Assembly: GCA_019429225.1 (NCBI GenBank)
Contig: JAHYJK010000013.1
Coordinates: forward strand, 1 to 38,759
Length of the DNA: 38,759 nucleotides
From: Anaerolineaceae bacterium
Lineage (GTDB): Bacteria; Chloroflexota; Anaerolineae; Anaerolineales; Anaerolineaceae
Reading direction: 5' to 3'
The notes below the pieces were generated by a model. The model was not told the DNA's origin. It was given only the letters and a program-made list of their open reading frames with translations, and did not search any database. The stretch's first letter is position 1. The number at the start of each line of letters is the position of its first letter. Shown here in pieces: positions 7,900-38,759 of the stretch. The translations under genes were made by a program, and so were the position numbers.

Positions 7900-10338
7900 T
7901 CAGCAATCTTCTTCCAGTAGATTGGTTTCGCGAACTGGCAAATTCATATCTTTTGGAATTCGGAAAGTTTTAATCTCACAAGGATTAAATTTCGCCTCGA
8001 TCACTTTTCCTAAATGTGGAATCTCTATGATGGCTTGCGTGACTGCCTGTTTGGTTTCTACGGCCCGAAGGATCAAATCATCACAATCTTCCCCCTGTTT
8101 CAGAACCGTGACCATCACGTTGTCTGGTGAAACTTGAATGAAGGAGTCCGATTGTGGCAATTTTCCTTCCGGATGAAATGTTGTAAATAAAGCCATTGGT
8201 TTCTGGTTTAATTCAACAGCCCTTCGCACAGTTCCACTCGATTCCCAGATCCCTTTATGGGGATACATGCTGTAATAGAATGTCTGCAGTCCCTGATCCA
8301 TGTATTGATAGTCCTCATCCGGTTTAATTTCTGCCGGGATGTGGTGCGCATACGCCGGACTACGCAGAATTGTCATTCCAATGTCACGATTATTAACATC
8401 CAGACTGTATTTGGCATCATTCAGCAAACTGAAACCATAGCTCATTTCCTTTTCACGGGCAGTGCCGGATATATCCACCCACTGCTGGAATGGAAATTCT
8501 TCCCCATTCGCGAAAGTTTCGATGTGCCCGTAGGCGATATCGCGGGTAACTTTCATAAATTTCACATTAACCGGGAAACGTAGTTTGAGCATTTTGTAAT
8601 GTTCCCGCCAATCGACGGTCACCTTCACATCAATCTGGTCTTTATCAGGATACATACAGAATTCCTGCATCAATTTTGAGGATTCATAATGACTGATCAC
8701 GCGGATCACCGCTTTCACCGGACCATACTCCACCAATCGCACACCGGATGGCTGAAATTCACCAATCACCTGATTCCAGACATAATAATTGTGTCCCCAG
8801 GTGTCACTCGGATCATCCAACACAACTGCTCTGGCAGCTTTATCCGAAAAGACTTCCAGATCCAGCCGCAAATCACGTAAACTGGCGATACTACCTGTGG
8901 CTTTATCAATTTCAAGTCGGAAAAATTGATTTTCGATGGTGGTATCGGTCGCTTCCAATTTCGGTAATGCAATTTCATTTTTGCGGTGCTCGCCATTCTC
9001 TATCAATCGATAGGTCCGATACCCCAATGCAGGTAAATCTGCGTTAAAACTCAACCGCACCCGGTCCGTCACGCTGGATGAATGCACTTTTTGGTGCGGG
9101 ATGGTTTGATCATGATCATCCACCAATACGGCTGTTTCTGGCAAGTTGCGTGACTCAATTTCGATATTTGAACTGACCGGCCAGGTATGCGGATTGAAAA
9201 CCACCAGTGGACGGACTCCATTTTCCTGCTGAACACCAATTTTCCAAGCAAATGATTGCAGTGCCAGATTCAAATTACGATCTGCAATGGCGAGGGCTTC
9301 GCCAAAACTATTGCGGCTGTCTTCGTAAGCTTCCTTTAAAGAGGTTCCAGCCAGAATATCATGAAATTGATTGAATAATATCTGTCTCCAGGCATGCTCG
9401 AAGTCGTTGGGATAAGGTTGCCCCAAAAAACTGGTTGCCAAATAAGACCACTTTTCAGCTGCCTGTAGTATGTTCTCAGCCTTGCGATTCCATTGTTTGA
9501 TGCCAGAATGAACCGAATAGCATCCTTTAGCGTGGTTTTGAAGCTCATCCCGCACGACGGGAATCGGCCATTTTTTTTCTACAGCTGTTTTGAAATAATT
9601 TTCCGGGGTTGAACAAATCAGCGCAGACGGGAAATTTTCATCCCGATCCAGGTGGTGGATACTTTCAATATTTTCTATTGTTGGTCCCCCACCATGATTA
9701 CCAACACCATAAAAACACATAAATTCGTCTATCGGATCTTTCATTTCCTCAACACAACGCATGGCATGGGTGGAAATTTCTTTGCCCCAGGATAGATATT
9801 CAAATGCAATTCGAAAGGTTAATACCTGCGAGCCATCACTCGACTCCCACCAGAACAATCTGGCTGGCAGGTTCTTTTCATGTGGCGTGGGTCTCAAGAA
9901 AACATATTGGTCGATGCCGCTTTTTTTCAAAATTTGAGGGATGGTGGCAGCATGTCCAAAACTATCGACATTAAAACCGGTTTTCGCGATGGTACCAAAT
10001 CTGGATTTGAAAAATCTTTGCGCATAAAGGCCATGGCGAACAAAAGACTCACCGGAGGGTATGTTGCAATCCGGTTCTACCCACCAACCTCCAACAATTC
10101 CCCAACGACCTTCTTTCACCCGCTCTTGAATCTCTGCGAACATGTCCGGGTCCGATTGTTCAACCCATTCATAGAAAGCCGCTGAACTGGAAACAAAGAT
10201 GAAGTCATCATATTCTTTCATCCGATCTAAAGCCGATCGAAAGGAAGCTTTTACTTCATGAAACCCTTCCTGCCATTGCCACAACCAAACCGGATCTATG
10301 TGGGCATTTCCAATCATGTGTAGTTTCTTGTTCTTCAT
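7900..10338 (-). CDS. GH38 alpha-mannosidase (MngB-like)
   Basis: Alpha-mannosidase of 812 residues, the complete GH38 of this operon. The catalytic domain begins at once: GNAHIDPVWLW holds the metal-binding H13-x-D15, and GFNVDSFGHA holds the nucleophile Asp125. The C-terminal half has the beta-sandwich domains usual for the family and ends at 7900. No signal peptide is seen. The ribosome site is weak (GAAAGCGAG region), and a 94-nt gap separates it from the GH84 gene upstream. It belongs to the short bacterial branch that includes 2-O-mannosyl-glycerate hydrolase (MngB). In this context an alpha-mannosyl oligosaccharide is a more likely substrate (inference). Confidence 0.93.
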   Translation of the reverse strand: MKNKKLHMIGNAHIDPVWLWQWQEGFHEVKASFRSALDRMKEYDDFIFVSSSAAFYEWVEQSDPDMFAEIQERVKEGRWGIVGGWWVEPDCNIPSGESFVRHGLYAQRFFKSRFGTIAKTGFNVDSFGHAATIPQILKKSGIDQYVFLRPTPHEKNLPARLFWWESSDGSQVLTFRIAFEYLSWGKEISTHAMRCVEEMKDPIDEFMCFYGVGNHGGGPTIENIESIHHLDRDENFPSALICSTPENYFKTAVEKKWPIPVVRDELQNHAKGCYSVHSGIKQWNRKAENILQAAEKWSYLATSFLGQPYPNDFEHAWRQILFNQFHDILAGTSLKEAYEDSRNSFGEALAIADRNLNLALQSFAWKIGVQQENGVRPLVVFNPHTWPVSSNIEIESRNLPETAVLVDDHDQTIPHQKVHSSSVTDRVRLSFNADLPALGYRTYRLIENGEHRKNEIALPKLEATDTTIENQFFRLEIDKATGSIASLRDLRLDLEVFSDKAARAVVLDDPSDTWGHNYYVWNQVIGEFQPSGVRLVEYGPVKAVIRVISHYESSKLMQEFCMYPDKDQIDVKVTVDWREHYKMLKLRFPVNVKFMKVTRDIAYGHIETFANGEEFPFQQWVDISGTAREKEMSYGFSLLNDAKYSLDVNNRDIGMTILRSPAYAHHIPAEIKPDEDYQYMDQGLQTFYYSMYPHKGIWESSGTVRRAVELNQKPMALFTTFHPEGKLPQSDSFIQVSPDNVMVTVLKQGEDCDDLILRAVETKQAVTQAIIEIPHLGKVIEAKFNPCEIKTFRIPKDMNLPVRETNLLEEDC

Positions 10339-10432
10339 TTTTATTTGCTCGCTTTCTATATATGCATGGCTTCTGTTAATTTTTCATGGTAGTTTTTATT
10401 CATATTATAGATTTTTTGGTGAGATTCTCACT

Positions 10433-11785
10433 TCATCTCGTTTCATATTTATCCAATACAAGCTCGGAAAATGGCAATAGCGACTCACCCATGATTCGCT
10501 TGGAATTTTTATGTATTGCTTTCAGTGTATAGTGAATTTCCGGCAGAATTTTCTGATGATCGCTACCATTTTCTTCTACACGCAATGCGAGTATCGTGTT
10601 TTTACCAATGGAAACCCAATTCTCCAGTTTTTCCAGCCAGGGAAGTAATTCATTGCGCAAGGCTGTGTTCGGACAATCGTTTACGATCCTATAGGAGGCA
10701 TCCGCGATCCGATCTAAATACTGTTCCAGAGCAATTACATCCGGATCTGTTAGAGCAGACGAACCATTTTGGATGGACAAAATTGCATTTTTTGTCAATT
10801 GTTCCAGTTTTTTAGCTTCAGGTGTACCCAGACAGGATCGCAAAGCATTCTCAGCGATCAACTGGAGATCTTCTGCGAAATCTGTACCGGCGACATCCAT
10901 CAGTGCAGATTGCCATGCAACATCAGGATCATACTCCATTGGATTGACAAAATAGTTGCCATATGTAGCCAGCGCAACTTTGGAGGATTCCGCTTGATTC
11001 ATCGGGTTGACCAGAATGCCTGCTACGTGCCGGTACAAATCGTCGGAGCGGCCACGAATGGGTCCAATGTGGATTTCCACATCCATTCCCCCATCATTGA
11101 CTGGATAGTTATCCCAGATCAATGGCTTGCGAGCGATTGCTTCGCCAAATCTTCGGGCATCCACAGCGGAAATCTCTTTTGAACAAACCTGCGTGCCGGT
11201 GTACATGATCATGATGTCCAGATGTAATTTCTGACCCAATTCAAAAATATATGGGCTGAAGGGTTCTGAACCTGCATAATCGGTCGGGCACATACTCAAC
11301 TGAACCTCATTGTCTAATTTTTTAAGCCAGGTGAATACCCGATTACACAAATCAGCATGGGCATCGGCATAGGATGGGTAGCGGAGATAATCTTCTTCGA
11401 AAGAAAATTCCGGGGTGATATCATCCAACAACAGAGAGAAATCGCGAACCCCCAGCTTATAAAAAGCTAGAAATTTTTCAGCTATGAACTCGAAATCGCG
11501 CTCCGAGGAATAACAAATCGATGTTCCCGGGCTGATGCAATAACAAAATTTGATACGGTTCTGTTTTGCAACCAGGATTGTCTTTTCGAAGATTTCTATA
11601 TCCTTAATCGGATAGGGTTCACGCCACCTGATACGATGGTAGCGATCATTCTTAGGCGCATAGAAATAGGCATTGTAACCAGTTTTGCCCAAAAATTGGA
11701 TCAGGTTCATTCGCTCCATAGGGGTGTAGAAGAATCCATAAAAACCTTCTACCACGCCACGGATATCAAAATAATTATTTCCCAT
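10433..11785 (-). CDS. GH84 beta-N-acetylglucosaminidase
   Basis: Catalytic domain of family GH84 (bacterial O-GlcNAcase/hyaluronidase-like enzymes), cleaving terminal beta-GlcNAc by substrate-assisted catalysis. The signature GVVEGFYG at the N-terminus, YAPKNDRYHRIRW and the Asp121-Asp122 pair in LLLDDI, which polarises the acetamido group and donates the proton, are all present. It has 450 residues, no signal peptide and no dockerin or CBM, unlike secreted clostridial homologues, so it should act in the cytoplasm on imported oligosaccharide. Its start follows the aldolase stop by 9 nt, with AGGA near the start. Alongside mannosidases it points to a GlcNAc- and mannose-containing glycan. Confidence 0.93.
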   Translation of the reverse strand: MGNNYFDIRGVVEGFYGFFYTPMERMNLIQFLGKTGYNAYFYAPKNDRYHRIRWREPYPIKDIEIFEKTILVAKQNRIKFCYCISPGTSICYSSERDFEFIAEKFLAFYKLGVRDFSLLLDDITPEFSFEEDYLRYPSYADAHADLCNRVFTWLKKLDNEVQLSMCPTDYAGSEPFSPYIFELGQKLHLDIMIMYTGTQVCSKEISAVDARRFGEAIARKPLIWDNYPVNDGGMDVEIHIGPIRGRSDDLYRHVAGILVNPMNQAESSKVALATYGNYFVNPMEYDPDVAWQSALMDVAGTDFAEDLQLIAENALRSCLGTPEAKKLEQLTKNAILSIQNGSSALTDPDVIALEQYLDRIADASYRIVNDCPNTALRNELLPWLEKLENWVSIGKNTILALRVEENGSDHQKILPEIHYTLKAIHKNSKRIMGESLLPFSELVLDKYETR

Positions 11786-32037: not shown

Positions 32038-33766
32038 CTAGTTCACCGGTAAACCCATGCAATTCCCACTCTCAAGAATAATCGAATGGTTGGCGTTGGC
32101 AACCAGGGCACACATCTGGGTGGCATCTTTTGTCATTTTATAGACACTATACCCGGTGAAAGGTCGTGGTTCACCGTATAACATCCAGGGGCCCGTGCCA
32201 GGCTTGCCAGCATTCTCCGGTTTTACTGTATCAAAGAAGAAGTGAATATGCTGACCCGGCAAAACTTCGGTATATCCAAAAGTTTCATAAGCCACCGAAT
32301 ATTGGTTGGATGAGGTGAATGTGATTTCATTGATCTTCACATACAGTGCTGGGTATGTCGGTGTGGGTGTACTGGGTACCTCGGTAGGAGCCAGCGTGGC
32401 GGAGGGTTGAAAGGTTGCCGTTGGTAGATTCTGTGTTGGAGCGAGCGTATTGGTGGCTTCCACCAGGCTGGCTGAGGAGACATTGGCATTCTCGGTCTGG
32501 ATTACTGGCGCCACACTATCCGTCGCGGTACCATCAGCAGTCTGCCTCTCCCTCAATTGTGAGAGAAGAAAACCACCCACCACCAGCACACCGACAATTA
32601 ATAAAAATGCACCCCCCCAATCCCGGCAATCCACATCCAGCGTTTCGATTTCTGCTTTTGTGGTTTTGAATTCATATTGGGCACAGAATGGATAGGAAAG
32701 GCCGGATTAGATCCGGAAACTGATGTCCGCATGGGAGAATCGTAAACAGTTTGATGATCCCCCATTGGAACTGGTATGGGGTTCGGTCTGATGGGTGGGT
32801 TGTTTTGACCGGATTGTGAGAAAACGTTTGCCGGTGTTGCAACCGGTTGCGATGAAACTGGCATGGAAGCTGGAAAAACTGTGGGTTGACCTTCATCTGC
32901 TATTCCAGTTTTGTTCTCAAAACCCTGCAGAATTCTTTTAAGAGCAGTGGAAAATTCATCCGTGGAAGCATATCGCTGATTACGATCCTTCGCCAAAGCT
33001 TTCATCAATACCGGGACTAATTGTGGATCCAGATCGGCCCGCAATGGTCGAATGTCCGGTACCGGGTCATTTAAGTGCATCATCATCACAGTCATCACCG
33101 AATTGGCTTCGAACGGTGGTTTTCCACTCAGCATTTCATACAGGGTGATTCCCAACGCATAAATATCCGAACGCTGGTCAGCTGGTTCGGATCTTACCAC
33201 TTCAGGCGGCATGTATCGGGCTGTTCCCATAACGGCTCCCGTTACCGTGTGCATCTGACCGCCAATGATTTTGACGATCCCAAAATCCATGAGGATAGCT
33301 TGATTGTTAACATCCAGCATGATATTGGCAGGCTTGATATCGCGGTGCACCATACCGCGTTTATGCGCATAACTCAATGCATTGCAGATATCGATCGTGA
33401 TTTTCAGAGCTTCTTCCAGGGACATCCGACGGTTACTGTCATTCAGTCGCTTGAGACGTTCCTGTAAAGTCTCACCCGGAACAAATTCCATGACCATGTA
33501 ATTAATACCCTGATCGGTATTGAAGTCAAAAACCTGGACGATATTGGGGTGTCGCAGGGATGCCACCACCGAAGCTTCTTCCTCGAAACGGTTGACAAAT
33601 TCCTGGTCTGAGCTGAGATGCGAGTGCACCAGCTTCACTGCCACCACTCGTTCAAGTTGAGATCGAAGGCTTTGTACACCGCTGACATACCGCCCTGACC
33701 CAATAACGCTTCGATTTTATAGCGGCCACCTAATGTCTGTCCAATCCAGGATGGTTGATTCATCAT
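32038..33766 (-). pseudogene. Ser/Thr receptor kinase (PknB type), disrupted by two frameshifts
   Basis: Begins with ATG at 33766 (AAGGA eight bases upstream): WIGQTLGGRYKIEALLGQGG and YKAF, then the frame breaks near 33650-33655. One missing base separates NL from RVVAVK-type sequence; the sister kinase reads NLRRVVAIK there. The kinase continues in another frame with VHRDIKPANIML and DFGIVKI, a Pro-rich linker and a cluster of basic residues. It breaks again in a run of seven G (C7 at 32612-32618 on plus). One extra G would restore a membrane helix (AFLLIVGVLVVGGFLL) and a 150-residue extracellular domain after a Thr/Pro linker. Adding one base at each place gives exactly 577 codons including the stop. 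It is either a pseudogene or two sequencing errors. Confidence 0.85.
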
Positions 33767-33921: not shown

Positions 33922-36282
33922 TTATTTGATTTTATAAATAGGACTTAACTCAATCTCCCCTACGATTATCTTTTCACGAATTTCCTGAATTTCAATTCTA
34001 ATTTGTTCAGGAATTATTTGTTCCATTTCATAAAAAGGTGCTAACCCAACCCCATCATTTTCCAGTCTTCCAACATACTTGCCCCCCTCAAACGCTCCCT
34101 CCACACTTCTCTGAATAATTTCATATGTTGTCACATCGGTATTTTTTAATACAGATGTCAGAATAACCGCTGCAAATTCAGGGTTTTCAATCACCCAATC
34201 ACTATCCACGCCAATAATATAGCCCGCATCTCGCTCCTTTATCACCATTGCAGTGCCCAAACCGACCTGCCCTGCCACTGGAAAGATGATATCTACATTC
34301 TGGTTGATTAATTCATTACCAATCTCCACACCTAAATCCATATTATCAAATGAATTAACAAACATACCACCATCCGGGTTATTGATATTCCAACCTATTA
34401 CCTGAACATTGACGCCTTTGACCCGATTGTAATAGCTGACACCACGGGTAAATCCATCCATAAATAACTTTACGGGTTGGAGCGGCATACCGCCATAAGT
34501 CGCAACAAATCCAGTTTCGGTCATTCTTGCTGCCAGATAACCAGCCAGGAACGCAGCCTCGTCAATCTGATAGATCTGACAGGATAGGTTCGGGAGATCG
34601 GTATCGACATCAACATCAATAACGCTGAAGTTAATCTCTGGATTGGCTTGAGCGAAAGCGATGGTGATATCTCCCAGCATGTATCCAGCAGAAACAATCA
34701 AGTCACAGCGTCTTTCAACAAAAGTTGTTAAATGCTTCTCATAATCCCCTTCTTCGAAAGATTGTAAGACCTCAACCTTGATACCCAGTGTTTTTTCTGC
34801 ATTCATGATCCCTTTATTTACGGTTTGTTGAAATGTACTCTCGAATACACTTCCCAGATCGGTTAACTGACAAACATTAAATTCTTGTTCCTGCAAGAGA
34901 ATTGCTGTTTCAGTCTTTTTTGTCGACTCTGCCCTGGCAGCATTCATCACTTCCATTGCCGATAAGGTTAATTGACTGCTGTGTAGACTATCCGTATTCG
35001 CTGGCTTTTGTGTTGGTTGGGTTAGCTCTGCAATTGGTTTCTCCCCTGTAAAGCCAAACCAGGAGGTTGCCATGCCAATAAAAATGACAACCAATACAAA
35101 GGTAACCAAAATCAATCCAATAAATAGAATTTTCGGTTTCTTTTTGGGCTTATCAGATGCTCCTAACTTTGCTGGCTTTTCAATCACAGTGGCAGTAATC
35201 AATTCTGAAGCAAGAGGCTCATTTGAACGTTCTACGACAGTAACATCCTGTTCTCTTTGAACGTTGGAGTGATCTATGCGGGTAACTTCTTGCTCAATTT
35301 TTTTAGAGGAAAGGTCAACCATGGTTACATCTTCTTTGTGAAGTTGTTCAGGTGGAATAACATGTGTCAATTGTTCTTCATTATCTTTTAATTCTGCAGA
35401 AACTGAGGCGGTTGGCCATTTAATTTCGTTTGTTTCCATCTGGTGGTGTAAGTTGCGTAATGCTTTCACCAAATCATCCGCTGTTTGAAAGCGGTTATTT
35501 CGATCTTTTTCTAAAGTTTTTTTTATGATTTGCGTTAATTCTTCGGGTAAATCATCTCTAATCGTCATGATATCTGGAATGGGATCATTTAAATGCATCA
35601 ACATAATCGTCATCGCAGAATCAGCCTCAAAAGGAGGTCTGCCGCTCAACATTTCAAACAAAGTGATACCCAATGAATAAATATCAGAGCGTTGATCTGC
35701 GGGTTCAGACCTGATAACTTCCGGAGCCATATAATTCGCTGTTCCTATCACTGTGCCTGTTAAGGTATGCGCAGAGCTGCCAACGATTTTTACAATCCCA
35801 AAATCCATCAGAACCGCTTGATTGTTTATATCCAGCATAATATTGCCGGGTTTCACATCGCGATGCACCATTCCTCGTTTGTGAGCGTAACTTAATCCAT
35901 CACACACATTGGTGGTAATCTGAATTGCATCTTCGATGGCCATTTTTCTCTGATTTTTGTTCAAACGTTGTAATCTTGCCTGTAGTGTTTCTCCAGGAAC
36001 GTACTCCATCACCATATAATTCACATCCTCATCCGTATTAAAATCGAAAACCTGAACAATATTCGGATGGCGCAGGGAAGCAATCGCCGCTGCTTCCTCC
36101 TCAAATCTTCTCAAGAATGATGGGTCAGAACTCAAATGAGGGTGGACTATTTTAATGGCGACCACCCGCCTGAGATTAGGGTCTATTGCCTTATAAACAG
36201 CTGACATCCCCCCCTGCCCTAAAAGCTCTTCAATTTTATAGCGCCCATTTAACGTCTGACCGATCCATCTGGATTGTTTCAT
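33922..36282 (-). CDS. Receptor Ser/Thr kinase fused to a BMP/PnrA-type solute-binding domain
   Basis: 786 residues from the ATG at 36282 (AAAGGA nine bases upstream; the frame extends to a TTG at 36300). The cytoplasmic PknB-type kinase has the glycine loop GQGGMSAVYKA, Lys44 in VAIK, the catalytic Asp142 in HRDVKPGN, Asp160 of DFG, and APE. Residues 280-380 form an acidic linker with three 14-residue repeats. A single membrane helix (ILFIGLILVTFVLVVIFIG) lies near 385-405. From about 468 to the end is a BMP-family periplasmic-binding fold (CQLTDLGSVFES, LIVSAGYMLGD, and the VDSDWV segment), related to nucleoside receptors such as PnrA/Med. The fusion implies a one-protein sensor: extracellular ligand binding drives intracellular phosphorylation (inference). 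Confidence 0.92.
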   Translation of the reverse strand: MKQSRWIGQTLNGRYKIEELLGQGGMSAVYKAIDPNLRRVVAIKIVHPHLSSDPSFLRRFEEEAAAIASLRHPNIVQVFDFNTDEDVNYMVMEYVPGETLQARLQRLNKNQRKMAIEDAIQITTNVCDGLSYAHKRGMVHRDVKPGNIMLDINNQAVLMDFGIVKIVGSSAHTLTGTVIGTANYMAPEVIRSEPADQRSDIYSLGITLFEMLSGRPPFEADSAMTIMLMHLNDPIPDIMTIRDDLPEELTQIIKKTLEKDRNNRFQTADDLVKALRNLHHQMETNEIKWPTASVSAELKDNEEQLTHVIPPEQLHKEDVTMVDLSSKKIEQEVTRIDHSNVQREQDVTVVERSNEPLASELITATVIEKPAKLGASDKPKKKPKILFIGLILVTFVLVVIFIGMATSWFGFTGEKPIAELTQPTQKPANTDSLHSSQLTLSAMEVMNAARAESTKKTETAILLQEQEFNVCQLTDLGSVFESTFQQTVNKGIMNAEKTLGIKVEVLQSFEEGDYEKHLTTFVERRCDLIVSAGYMLGDITIAFAQANPEINFSVIDVDVDTDLPNLSCQIYQIDEAAFLAGYLAARMTETGFVATYGGMPLQPVKLFMDGFTRGVSYYNRVKGVNVQVIGWNINNPDGGMFVNSFDNMDLGVEIGNELINQNVDIIFPVAGQVGLGTAMVIKERDAGYIIGVDSDWVIENPEFAAVILTSVLKNTDVTTYEIIQRSVEGAFEGGKYVGRLENDGVGLAPFYEMEQIIPEQIRIEIQEIREKIIVGEIELSPIYKIK

Positions 36283-36643
36283 TTTGATTGTTCCTTTCAA
36301 GCTAAAGGACCCATCAGAGAGTTGATTTGTGGTGTAGGTAAAGATGGGATGATTGACTGTTACTATACAGTATACAAATTAATTTTCATCAATTCAATTA
36401 TGAAATTATTATAAAAATTGTCATATTAATTTTTATTTTGCGTAACTCTTTTTTTTTATAGGTGTTTTTGCAAGGTAGACAATCACCTGTTTTGTTGTCT
36501 TAACATTGATTAATTGTGTTGGATTCGTCCAACACCAGGAAAACCAATCTCTTCCCAGCCTGAAACTAGATTATTTTGCAGGTTTATTCAATGCACCTAT
36601 TTACTTTGCAGGTGATTGACTCTCATTATTGGAGGTAATTCGT
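36283..36643. promoter_or_regulatory. Divergent intergenic region with repeats, upstream of kinase and synthase
   Basis: 361 nt without a gene. It holds a 20-nt hairpin GTGTTGGA-TTCG-TCCAACAC (36516-36535), TTTGCAGGT repeated 30 bp apart (36575-36583 and 36605-36613), and CAATCACCTG (36480-36489) facing its exact complement CAGGTGATTG (36609-36618). The last copies end just before the GGAGG ribosome site at 36631-36635. No strong sigma-70 promoter was identified by eye. Confidence 0.45.
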
Positions 36644-38759
36644 ATGTCAGAACAAAAACCAGTAGCAATCGTGGGGATCGGAGCCATCATGCCAGATGCT
36701 CCCAATGCAAAACTCTTTTGGGATAATATCCTCAAAGGGCATTATTCCATCAAAGATGTTCCAGCTGATCGATGGGATACCAATCTTTATTACCATATTG
36801 ATCCCAAAATTCCGGATAAGACCTATAGCAAAATCGGTTCCTGGGTAACAAATTTTGAACTCAACCCGATGAAAATGCGGATTCCCATTCCACCTACCGT
36901 TTTAGCTCAAATGGATTTTACTCAACAATGGGGTATCGCAGCCAGCCACCAGGCGCTCAGCGATTATGGTTATCCAGAGCGGACGCTAGACCCGGAAAGG
37001 ATGGCTGTGATTATCGGGAATTCGAACGCAGGTGAACGTCATTATCGTTCCACCATGCGAATTCTACTGCCTGAATATGTTCAGGCATTGGAGCAATCCG
37101 ATACTTTTAGAAACCTGCCTGCTGCAATTCAACAGCAGTTGATTGATGGTTTTCAGAATAATATTCGCCACCAGATTCCGGATATCACCGAAGACACCAT
37201 GTCCGGTGAATTATCCAACATTATTGCTGGCAGAATAGCCAACGTTTTCAATTTCAGTGGCCCTAATTTCGTCACGGATGCAGCCTGTGCGTCTTCACTG
37301 GCTGCATTGCAAGCTGCCATTCAGGGGTTGAATGATTATCAATATGATACTGTCTTAGTAGGTGGTGTAGATCGCAATATGGGTCCAGAATCCTTCGTCA
37401 AATTCTCAAAAATTGGTGCTCTCAGCGCAGATGGATCACGTCCTTACGCGGATGGTGCAAATGGCTTTGTGATGGGTGAAGGTACAGCCATTTTTATGCT
37501 CAAACGGCTTACAGATGCTGAACGCGAAAGTGATAAGATTTATGCGGTCATCTGCGGGATCGGTTCCAGTGCGGATGGTAAAGGCAAAGGGATTACTGCT
37601 CCTAATCCATTGGGTCAACTGAGAGCCATTGAGAGAGCCTGGAAAAATGCCGGTGTCACACCTGCCAGTGCAGGGTTAATTGAAGGCCATGGTACCTCAA
37701 CCCGCGTAGGAGATGTGGTGGAAGTTAACAGCCTGAATGAAGTTTTCGGGAAGTTTGGAATTCCTCTACACACCATCGCGCTAGGTTCAGTAAAATCCAA
37801 CATTGGCCATCTCAAGAGTGCTGCCGGTGCTGCCGGTATGGCCAAAGTAGCTTTTGCTTTGGATCAGAAAATACTACCTCCTTCGGTTAATTTTCATAAA
37901 CCCAATCCAAATATCGACTTTGAAAATATGCCTTTCTTTGTAAATACCCAGACGCAACCCTGGAATAAACCAGTCGGTGAAATTCGTCGGGCAGGTGTGA
38001 GTGCTTTTGGATTTGGTGGCACTAATTTTCATGTGGTAATGGAAGAATATGTACCGGGTTTACATGAAGAGCGCCAACCGGTCTACAGTATCCCGGCTGT
38101 TGTTGCCAAACCTGTCGATCAGGTAGTCACCTCAAAGCCCACAAATGGCAACTCAACCCAGTGGGTTGAAAATCAAGCTGTAAAAGAATTCGTCCTGGCG
38201 GCTGTGAGTGAAAAAACAGGGTATCCAGCAGAAATGCTGGATGTGGAGTTGGATCTGGAAGCCGATCTGGGCGTTGATACCGTTAAACAGGCTGAGCTTT
38301 TCCAGTCCATTCGCGAGCATTTTGGTATTCCTCGGCGCGAAGATTTACGTTTGTCCGACTACAATACCCTCGAGAAAGTGATCGGGTTTGTGATGGATAA
38401 TGCTTCCGGTTCGGAAGCCTCAGCATCAAAATCATCGATTCAGAGTGAAATTTCCCCGCAACCAGCAGCATCTGTACAGACATCACCAAGCGATGCAGCC
38501 AATGAAACGGGTGGAAAGGCATCCGATCAGGAGATCACCCAATTTGTGATCCAGCAGGTGGCAGAAAAAACTGGTTATCCCGCTGAGATGCTTGATTTAG
38601 AACTTGATCTGGAAGCTGACCTGGGTGTCGATACTGTCAAGCAAGCTGAATTATTTGCTGCCATCCGCACACATTATAATGTCCCCCGCCGCGAGGATCT
38701 GCGCTTATCGGATTACAACACACTCGCAAAAGTCATCAACTTCTTCAAAGAGATAGGAA
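36644..38759 (+). CDS. Type I polyketide/fatty-acid synthase: ketosynthase and tandem ACPs (partial)
   Basis: The first 705 codons of a multidomain synthase, open at the right edge. The ketosynthase occupies residues 1-470: nucleophile Cys215 in DAACASSL, His349 in EGHGTSTRVGD and His389 in NIGHLKSAAG are all intact, and the GVSAFGFGGTNFH end motif is present. Two acyl-carrier-like domains follow (about 515-585 and 630-705), nearly identical around LDLEADLGVDTVKQAELF and joined by a Ser/Ala/Gln-rich linker. In both, the residue that normally carries phosphopantetheine (Ser) is Thr: 546 and 664. GGAGG lies eight bases before the ATG. The arrangement recalls PUFA-synthase-like multi-ACP proteins; the product is unknown. 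Confidence 0.92.
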   Translation, partial: MSEQKPVAIVGIGAIMPDAPNAKLFWDNILKGHYSIKDVPADRWDTNLYYHIDPKIPDKTYSKIGSWVTNFELNPMKMRIPIPPTVLAQMDFTQQWGIAASHQALSDYGYPERTLDPERMAVIIGNSNAGERHYRSTMRILLPEYVQALEQSDTFRNLPAAIQQQLIDGFQNNIRHQIPDITEDTMSGELSNIIAGRIANVFNFSGPNFVTDAACASSLAALQAAIQGLNDYQYDTVLVGGVDRNMGPESFVKFSKIGALSADGSRPYADGANGFVMGEGTAIFMLKRLTDAERESDKIYAVICGIGSSADGKGKGITAPNPLGQLRAIERAWKNAGVTPASAGLIEGHGTSTRVGDVVEVNSLNEVFGKFGIPLHTIALGSVKSNIGHLKSAAGAAGMAKVAFALDQKILPPSVNFHKPNPNIDFENMPFFVNTQTQPWNKPVGEIRRAGVSAFGFGGTNFHVVMEEYVPGLHEERQPVYSIPAVVAKPVDQVVTSKPTNGNSTQWVENQAVKEFVLAAVSEKTGYPAEMLDVELDLEADLGVDTVKQAELFQSIREHFGIPRREDLRLSDYNTLEKVIGFVMDNASGSEASASKSSIQSEISPQPAASVQTSPSDAANETGGKASDQEITQFVIQQVAEKTGYPAEMLDLELDLEADLGVDTVKQAELFAAIRTHYNVPRREDLRLSDYNTLAKVINFFKEIG
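38187..38757 (+). repeat. Tandem carrier-domain coding repeats
   Basis: Two in-frame copies of a segment of about 215 nt, about 38187-38403 and 38535-38757, encoding near-identical ACP-like domains, separated by a linker of about 130 nt. More copies may follow beyond the right edge. Confidence 0.75.

Follow-up and report, generated by a model that had tools for sequence, protein, structure and literature searches.

Does one bacterial gene encode a receptor kinase with an extracellular BMP/PnrA-like domain, and would that domain bind a nucleoside? The gene lies in the window, the whole 38,759-nucleotide stretch of Anaerolineaceae DNA analyzed here, which corresponds to contig C277 in a draft genome of 4.2 Mb (G000; 368 contigs, 97.9% complete, 4.2% contamination). 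The first-pass annotation had claimed that a single frame joins a complete kinase, a single membrane helix, and a full BMP domain, and Pfam, hydropathy, and motif analysis confirmed this organization (Table 1). The frame can start at a TTG (frame 33922-36300) or at the ATG at 36282, and its stop codon is at 33922-33924. The kinase motifs are complete, with a Gly loop at 22, AIK with Lys44, HRD at 140, DFG at 160, and APE at 186, all of which we take to be Hanks-type kinase motifs, and the activation-loop sequence TLTGTVIGT is at 173. The domain scores 201.7 bits with PF00069 compared to 138.1 bits with PF07714. The best NCBIfam model is the PASTA kinase NF033483 at 383.7 bits, which is below the cut-off of 450, so the protein is not a member of that family, and no PASTA repeats were found in it by Pfam at E 0.001. 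The membrane helix is the sole strong hydrophobic helix (mean hydropathy 3.23), and the one other hydropathy peak, at residues 663-681 (1.68), falls within the BMP domain. The helix is preceded by the basic stretch KPKKKPK, which agrees with a topology that has the kinase inside and the BMP domain outside. A profile search without a BMP match had been named as evidence that would count against the proposal; PF02608 was found at 162 bits compared to a cut-off of 24.1 (E 2.1e-47), covering profile positions 5-297 of 301. The BMP part scores 49.9 bits with NF047927, a putative B6 transporter BMP protein model with a cut-off of 400, and is not assigned to it. Unlike a separate secreted solute-binding protein of an ABC transporter, this domain is fused behind a kinase and a membrane helix.

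Table 1. Features of the receptor kinase locus. Coordinates are positions in the window; residue numbers refer to the 786-residue protein.
Feature	Coordinates	Strand	Basis or remark
BMP-domain receptor kinase, stop included	33922..36282	-	786 aa, one open frame
Hanks-type Ser/Thr kinase domain, aa 15-267	35482..36240	-	Pfam PF00069, E 1.9e-59
Single transmembrane helix, aa 385-403, with KPKKKPK on its inner side	35074..35130	-	Hydropathy scan
BMP/PnrA-like domain, aa 472-779	33946..34869	-	Pfam PF02608, pocket mapping, AlphaFold2, fold matches
Rewritten ligand-entrance loop, aa 478-485, SVFESTFQ	34828..34851	-	Nearest relatives' consensus G.DDKSFN
Tandem twin kinase with another ectodomain	32038..33765	-	Broken near 33650 and near 32620 into three frames
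Ketoacyl synthase with two acyl-carrier domains, divergent neighbor	36629..38759	+	Cut by the window end

This anatomy fits and supports the earlier idea of a one-protein receptor, for which we infer ligand binding, coupling, and kinase output. On binding a nucleoside or a similar ligand, the extracellular BMP (Venus-flytrap) domain would close; the lone membrane helix would transmit this movement to the kinase inside, which would alter its autophosphorylation and phosphorylate Ser/Thr targets. Through this protein the cell probably senses a nucleoside-type molecule directly. The gene would have arisen by tandem duplication of a kinase that had a different ectodomain, which was replaced in one of the copies by a transporter-type BMP domain. 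We assign a probability of roughly 0.6 to a one-protein extracellular nucleoside-type receptor kinase with this mechanism and origin. To our knowledge, few ligands have been established for bacterial Ser/Thr receptor kinases other than the cell-wall-sensing PASTA kinases. The ectodomain family has solved ligand-bound structures, which makes both the ligand and the response directly testable.

The receptor kinase gene is flanked directly by the twin kinase and the ketoacyl synthase gene, and transporter genes do not adjoin it. Promoter and terminator scans returned no more than in shuffles. The same domain architecture is encoded by a syntenic gene on contig C17 of G146, another genome from this genus. 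Both Pfam domains were found at locus L009 (JAURZL010000009.1, taken as G146 C17), through which the G146 fusion is Pfam-confirmed. The sister gene adjoins the same ketoacyl synthase gene (83% identical over about 590 residues) and an intact twin kinase, which is a single 578-residue frame. The break in the window twin at about 32620 lies near a run of seven G, and the frame breaks may be a sequencing error or mark a pseudogene. The ectodomain of the twin had no Pfam match at E 1 and only weak matches in the PDB, the best being superoxide dismutase (E 0.029). Between the window and sister proteins, identity is 77% for the kinase and 57% for the BMP domain. A contig scan with short exact peptide patterns returned two loci, the sister gene and, in a Gallionellales genome, a match to the kinase alone; among the matches listed for the six remaining genomes of the genus there was no kinase-BMP frame. 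The window genome has further Ser/Thr signaling parts, which favors the receptor reading: 13 kinase places (12 over the cut-off), 2 PP2C, and 10 FHA; against it, no PP2C gene was found on the window contig. Another contig of this genome (L162, G000:C166; 9.65 kb) has three kinase genes, two of which carry ectodomains that resemble formylglycine enzymes by eye. Elsewhere in the window (7900-11785, minus strand), a GH38 alpha-mannosidase gene adjoins a PF07555 beta-N-acetylglucosaminidase gene within a glycan-degradation cluster.

The origin of the fusion in this genus was addressed with a tree built by a quick method with SH-aLRT support; its 37 kinase domains were taken from the genus and from the remaining fusions. 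The two BMP kinases pair with each other (99) and stand beside the two twins (94), and all four group together at 86. They belong to a group of seven kinases (94) that is completed by single kinases of G143, G144, and G140. The five non-BMP kinases of the group carry an unrelated ectodomain of roughly 120-150 residues that shares 58-74% identity with the ectodomain of the G146 twin; the kinase and ectodomain of the window twin are in different frames. Genomes G141, G142, and G145 gave no kinase of this group (best identities 44%, 37-40%, and 43%, respectively). Because the twins and the G140, G143, and G144 kinases carry the other ectodomain, the BMP domain is placed as a replacement on one duplicated copy; most simply, the other ectodomain would be the older state and the BMP domain the later arrival. 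The G140, G143, G144, and G146 kinases all have a beta-N-acetylhexosaminidase-like gene (named by eye) within a few kb, which fits their descent from one locus. The fused BMP domains of the window and G146 group with BMP proteins of the Anaerolineaceae family, and the exact place of the pair among them has weak support (22/72). In the 11 loci viewed, such BMP genes adjoin a gene for an ABC-ATPase-like protein of ~520 residues, usually followed by permease-like genes (by eye). Other kinases of the genus have WD40-like and formylglycine-enzyme-like ectodomains (by eye), and this variety suggests that ectodomain exchange may be frequent in the genus.

The spread of the architecture, for which a search for co-occurring PF00069 and PF02608 had been proposed along with the original claim, was examined in genomes of four taxonomic ranks. 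The genomes searched were 147 from the family, 151 from the order, 151 from the phylum, and 150 from the class, in overlapping sets numbered to G555, and frames longer than 560 residues were then inspected for a kinase. Pfam-confirmed kinase-BMP fusions occur in at least five genomes of the same family (G000, G146, G060, and G112) and order (G267); G060, G112, and G267 belong to genera other than that of the window. Four of the eight family frames above this length, among the matches listed, have a kinase, as does one (G267) of the 11 order frames inspected out of 12 further ones. No kinase was found in the three phylum frames inspected out of six new ones, the other three holding two BMP matches each, or in the 40 class stretches inspected among the matches listed, from which some frames with two BMP matches were excluded. 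In the stretches inspected around ten BMP loci in viral contigs, no kinase lay beside the BMP frame. Predicted kinase-BMP fusions are rare, and five is a lower bound. A single clade of the five fused BMP domains was rejected in a tree of 33 domains (248 log-likelihood units worse, p-AU 0.00027), which means that the combination arose at least twice. The G060 BMP domain is 62% and 60% identical to BMP domains in frames of 353-355 residues in G261 and G235, compared to 31% to that of the window. Among the kinases sampled, the G112 kinase groups with four non-BMP kinases of the window genome (94), and the G267 kinase groups with its own tandem neighbor (94). Related bacteria thus seem to have made the kinase-BMP combination more than once, and three or four origins look likely from these groupings.

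The long BMP frames that have no kinase were set aside; they are BMP-BMP, BMP-solute-binding, BMP-permease, and nSTAND1-WD40-BMP proteins and a 3323-residue repeat protein. Two BMP domains per chain are found at 12 loci (L079, L080, L081, L120, L170, and L205-L211). A 728-residue protein (L196:1338-3524) has a BMP domain from almost residue 1 followed by a BPD_transp_2 permease domain (Pfam, L196), and L197, L198, and L199 have starts similar to it. The BMP domain is combined with Peripla_BP_4 in L073:2364-4523, with SBP_bac_3 plus Phosphonate-bd in L115:2989-5646, with SBP_bac_3 in L124:1947-3719, and with Peripla_BP_6 in L201:2363-4570. The 3323-residue repeat-rich protein (L121:4606-14577, G259) contains BMP and SBP_bac_5. 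In a 1598-residue protein of G240 (L169:4956-9752), an nSTAND1 NTPase is combined with a hydrophobic helix (593-611), WD40 propellers, and, at the C terminus, a BMP domain; by these predicted domains the protein is another signaling-type protein with an acquired BMP domain.

The BMP domain was modeled alone with AlphaFold2 from a nine-row alignment at a mean pLDDT of 85.6; a whole-chain model from a two-row alignment had a pLDDT of 29.8 and was not used. The best fold matches are Lbp with guanosine (Z 33.0), BmpD with adenosine (32.3), and Treponema pallidum PnrA with inosine (31.8), then an Aeropyrum protein (31.3) and the Streptococcus pneumoniae PnrA entries (31.2 to 30.8), followed by RfuA with riboflavin (29.5) and Med (28.9), with sugar binders from 21.4 down. 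The nine best matches align 281-305 residues with an rmsd of 2.9-4.2. By sequence as well as by fold, Foldseek included, the closest solved structures belong to nucleoside binders: Lbp, BmpA or BmpD, and PnrA of T. pallidum and of S. pneumoniae. According to the available part of PMC9601137, no ligand had been added in the case of Lbp, and guanosine was modeled into the observed density. The text available from PMC13325309 lists F27, D98, F151, F176, V224, D225, and K242 of BmpA as conserved across nucleoside-bound members, and 12 BmpA/BmpD positions from this source were mapped through the alignment, to which a numbering offset of 6 fits. All seven core residues are identical in the window protein, as F484, D556, F607, F645, V692, D693, and K713, respectively. 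None of the seven, which include both stacking Phe and three ribose-side polar residues, varies among the five kinase-fused BMP domains, and each of them is present in 101 to 106 of 117 other BMP domains. A ligand pocket without conserved residues across homologs was the second outcome named as counting against the proposal, and the core was found to be kept. Four of the mapped positions differ in the window protein (D24 to Glu, N28 to Gln, I147 to Pro, and A200 to Val). BmpA D19 was outside the first alignment; Asp475 is at its likely place in a larger alignment, and the G146 sister has Ser at 475.

These four positions, together with the base-recognition loop, make a nucleoside likely yet not secure, and the pocket of the receptor kinase may have been retuned after fusion to a riboflavin-like molecule, a sugar, or a signal molecule. 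The loop, which tunes specificity according to the portion of PMC13325309 consulted, is rewritten in the window protein: 6 of 8 near-invariant columns at residues 476-486 are changed compared to 16 of 94 elsewhere (Fisher p 0.0011), a conserved column being one at 90% or more in the 49 nearest non-kinase BMP domains. Across the domain as a whole, 22 of 102 conserved columns differ in the window protein and 16 do so in its sister, the two sets sharing 10 columns, whereas omitting the 49 near relatives one at a time gave a median of 2 and at most 12. The nearness in fold of riboflavin-bound RfuA was also counted against a nucleoside, as was the statement in the accessible part of PMC9602780 that almost all Bmp-family proteins of model bacteria are predicted sugar binders. 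However, the Phe pair and ribose-side residues are kept in every fused domain, and the loop is nearly unchanged in the sister species, with 1 of its 8 conserved columns altered. A non-nucleoside ligand seems unlikely to us, though it deserves serious consideration. We read the pocket as a nucleoside-type core that appears to be kept, with an uncertain base preference in the window species.

The many changed columns would also suit a BMP domain that binds no ligand and acts as a rigid ectodomain, a dimer contact, or a docking site for a transporter or lipoprotein. The end branches of both fused BMP domains are long (0.54 and 0.61 compared to a median of 0.11, with one stand-alone BMP domain longer at 0.78) and could mean relaxed constraint. 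This explanation is improbable given the retention of the seven core residues in domains fused at least twice and the substitution pattern between the window and G146. By the Nei-Gojobori method, pS is saturated (0.81 in the kinase and 0.80 in the BMP domain), and pN is far lower in both (0.14 and 0.28, respectively, with 0.46 in the linker plus helix), which indicates that both domains are under selection. The last alternative is an artefact in which two adjacent genes were merged by an assembly or sequencing error. Base errors are possible in a draft genome whose neighboring twin kinase is in three frames, but the same fused gene is on a 131-kb contig of the second genome and further fused cases are in three other genomes. 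The artefact is rejected on the strength of the second genome, and its probability is negligible.

A nucleoside-type receptor kinase remains our preferred reading, and the combined data identify kinase-BMP as a real, conserved, and recurrent putative receptor architecture with a nucleoside as the likeliest ligand. A broader and more tentative proposal, which we hold to be somewhat doubtful, is that Anaerolineales repeatedly build extracellular nucleoside receptor kinases by joining transporter-type BMP domains to existing membrane kinases and that the two sister species sense different nucleosides. The latter would follow from the divergence of the base-recognition loop between the two sister proteins. 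If true, these proteins would be a bacterial counterpart of purine receptors, and the event in this genus would be recent enough to be read from the tandem pair. The twin with the other ectodomain would be a natural control and would illustrate how such receptors gain new senses.

Novelty is limited to the BMP version because kinases with other solute-binding domains are in print, in a paper whose authors we take to be Krupa and Srinivasan. As far as the part consulted goes, that paper (PMC1262709, 2005) describes Ser/Thr kinases with solute-binding domains of the Glu/Gln type in Streptomyces coelicolor and of the ANF-receptor type in Nostoc. These resemble the window protein in joining both parts in one chain and differ in their solute-binding families, which are not BMP/PnrA, and in their phyla. 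Searches of the open-access literature returned nothing with a BMP-kinase fusion in its title or abstract, and most matches were off topic. The BMP version looks new, and the architecture may well be recorded in family databases. The PnrA/BMP proteins (TmpC/PnrA, S. pneumoniae PnrA, BmpA, BmpD, and Lbp) have the fold and core pocket in common with the window protein; they are solute-binding proteins of (putative) ABC transporters, whereas the window BMP domain is a kinase ectodomain with a changed loop. Ser/Thr kinases are among the receptors stimulated by solute-binding proteins in the text available from PMC9602780. In the GlnH-GlnX-PknG system a solute-binding protein is likewise proposed to control a Ser/Thr kinase, but through three separate proteins and with an amino-acid ligand (PMC8546545, in part). 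The BMP domain is a signaling-receptor ectodomain in most Dictyostelium Grl receptors according to the available portion of PMC1885808; these are eukaryotic seven-helix receptors that have no kinase. The nearest working analogues in animals are the Venus kinase receptors of invertebrates, which combine a Venus-flytrap ectodomain, one membrane helix, and an inner kinase and are activated by a small molecule, L-arginine (PMC2680970, in the part available). By their description there they are set apart by an insulin-receptor-like tyrosine kinase and a GABA-B-like ectodomain, whereas the window protein has an N-terminal Ser/Thr-type kinase and a C-terminal BMP ectodomain.
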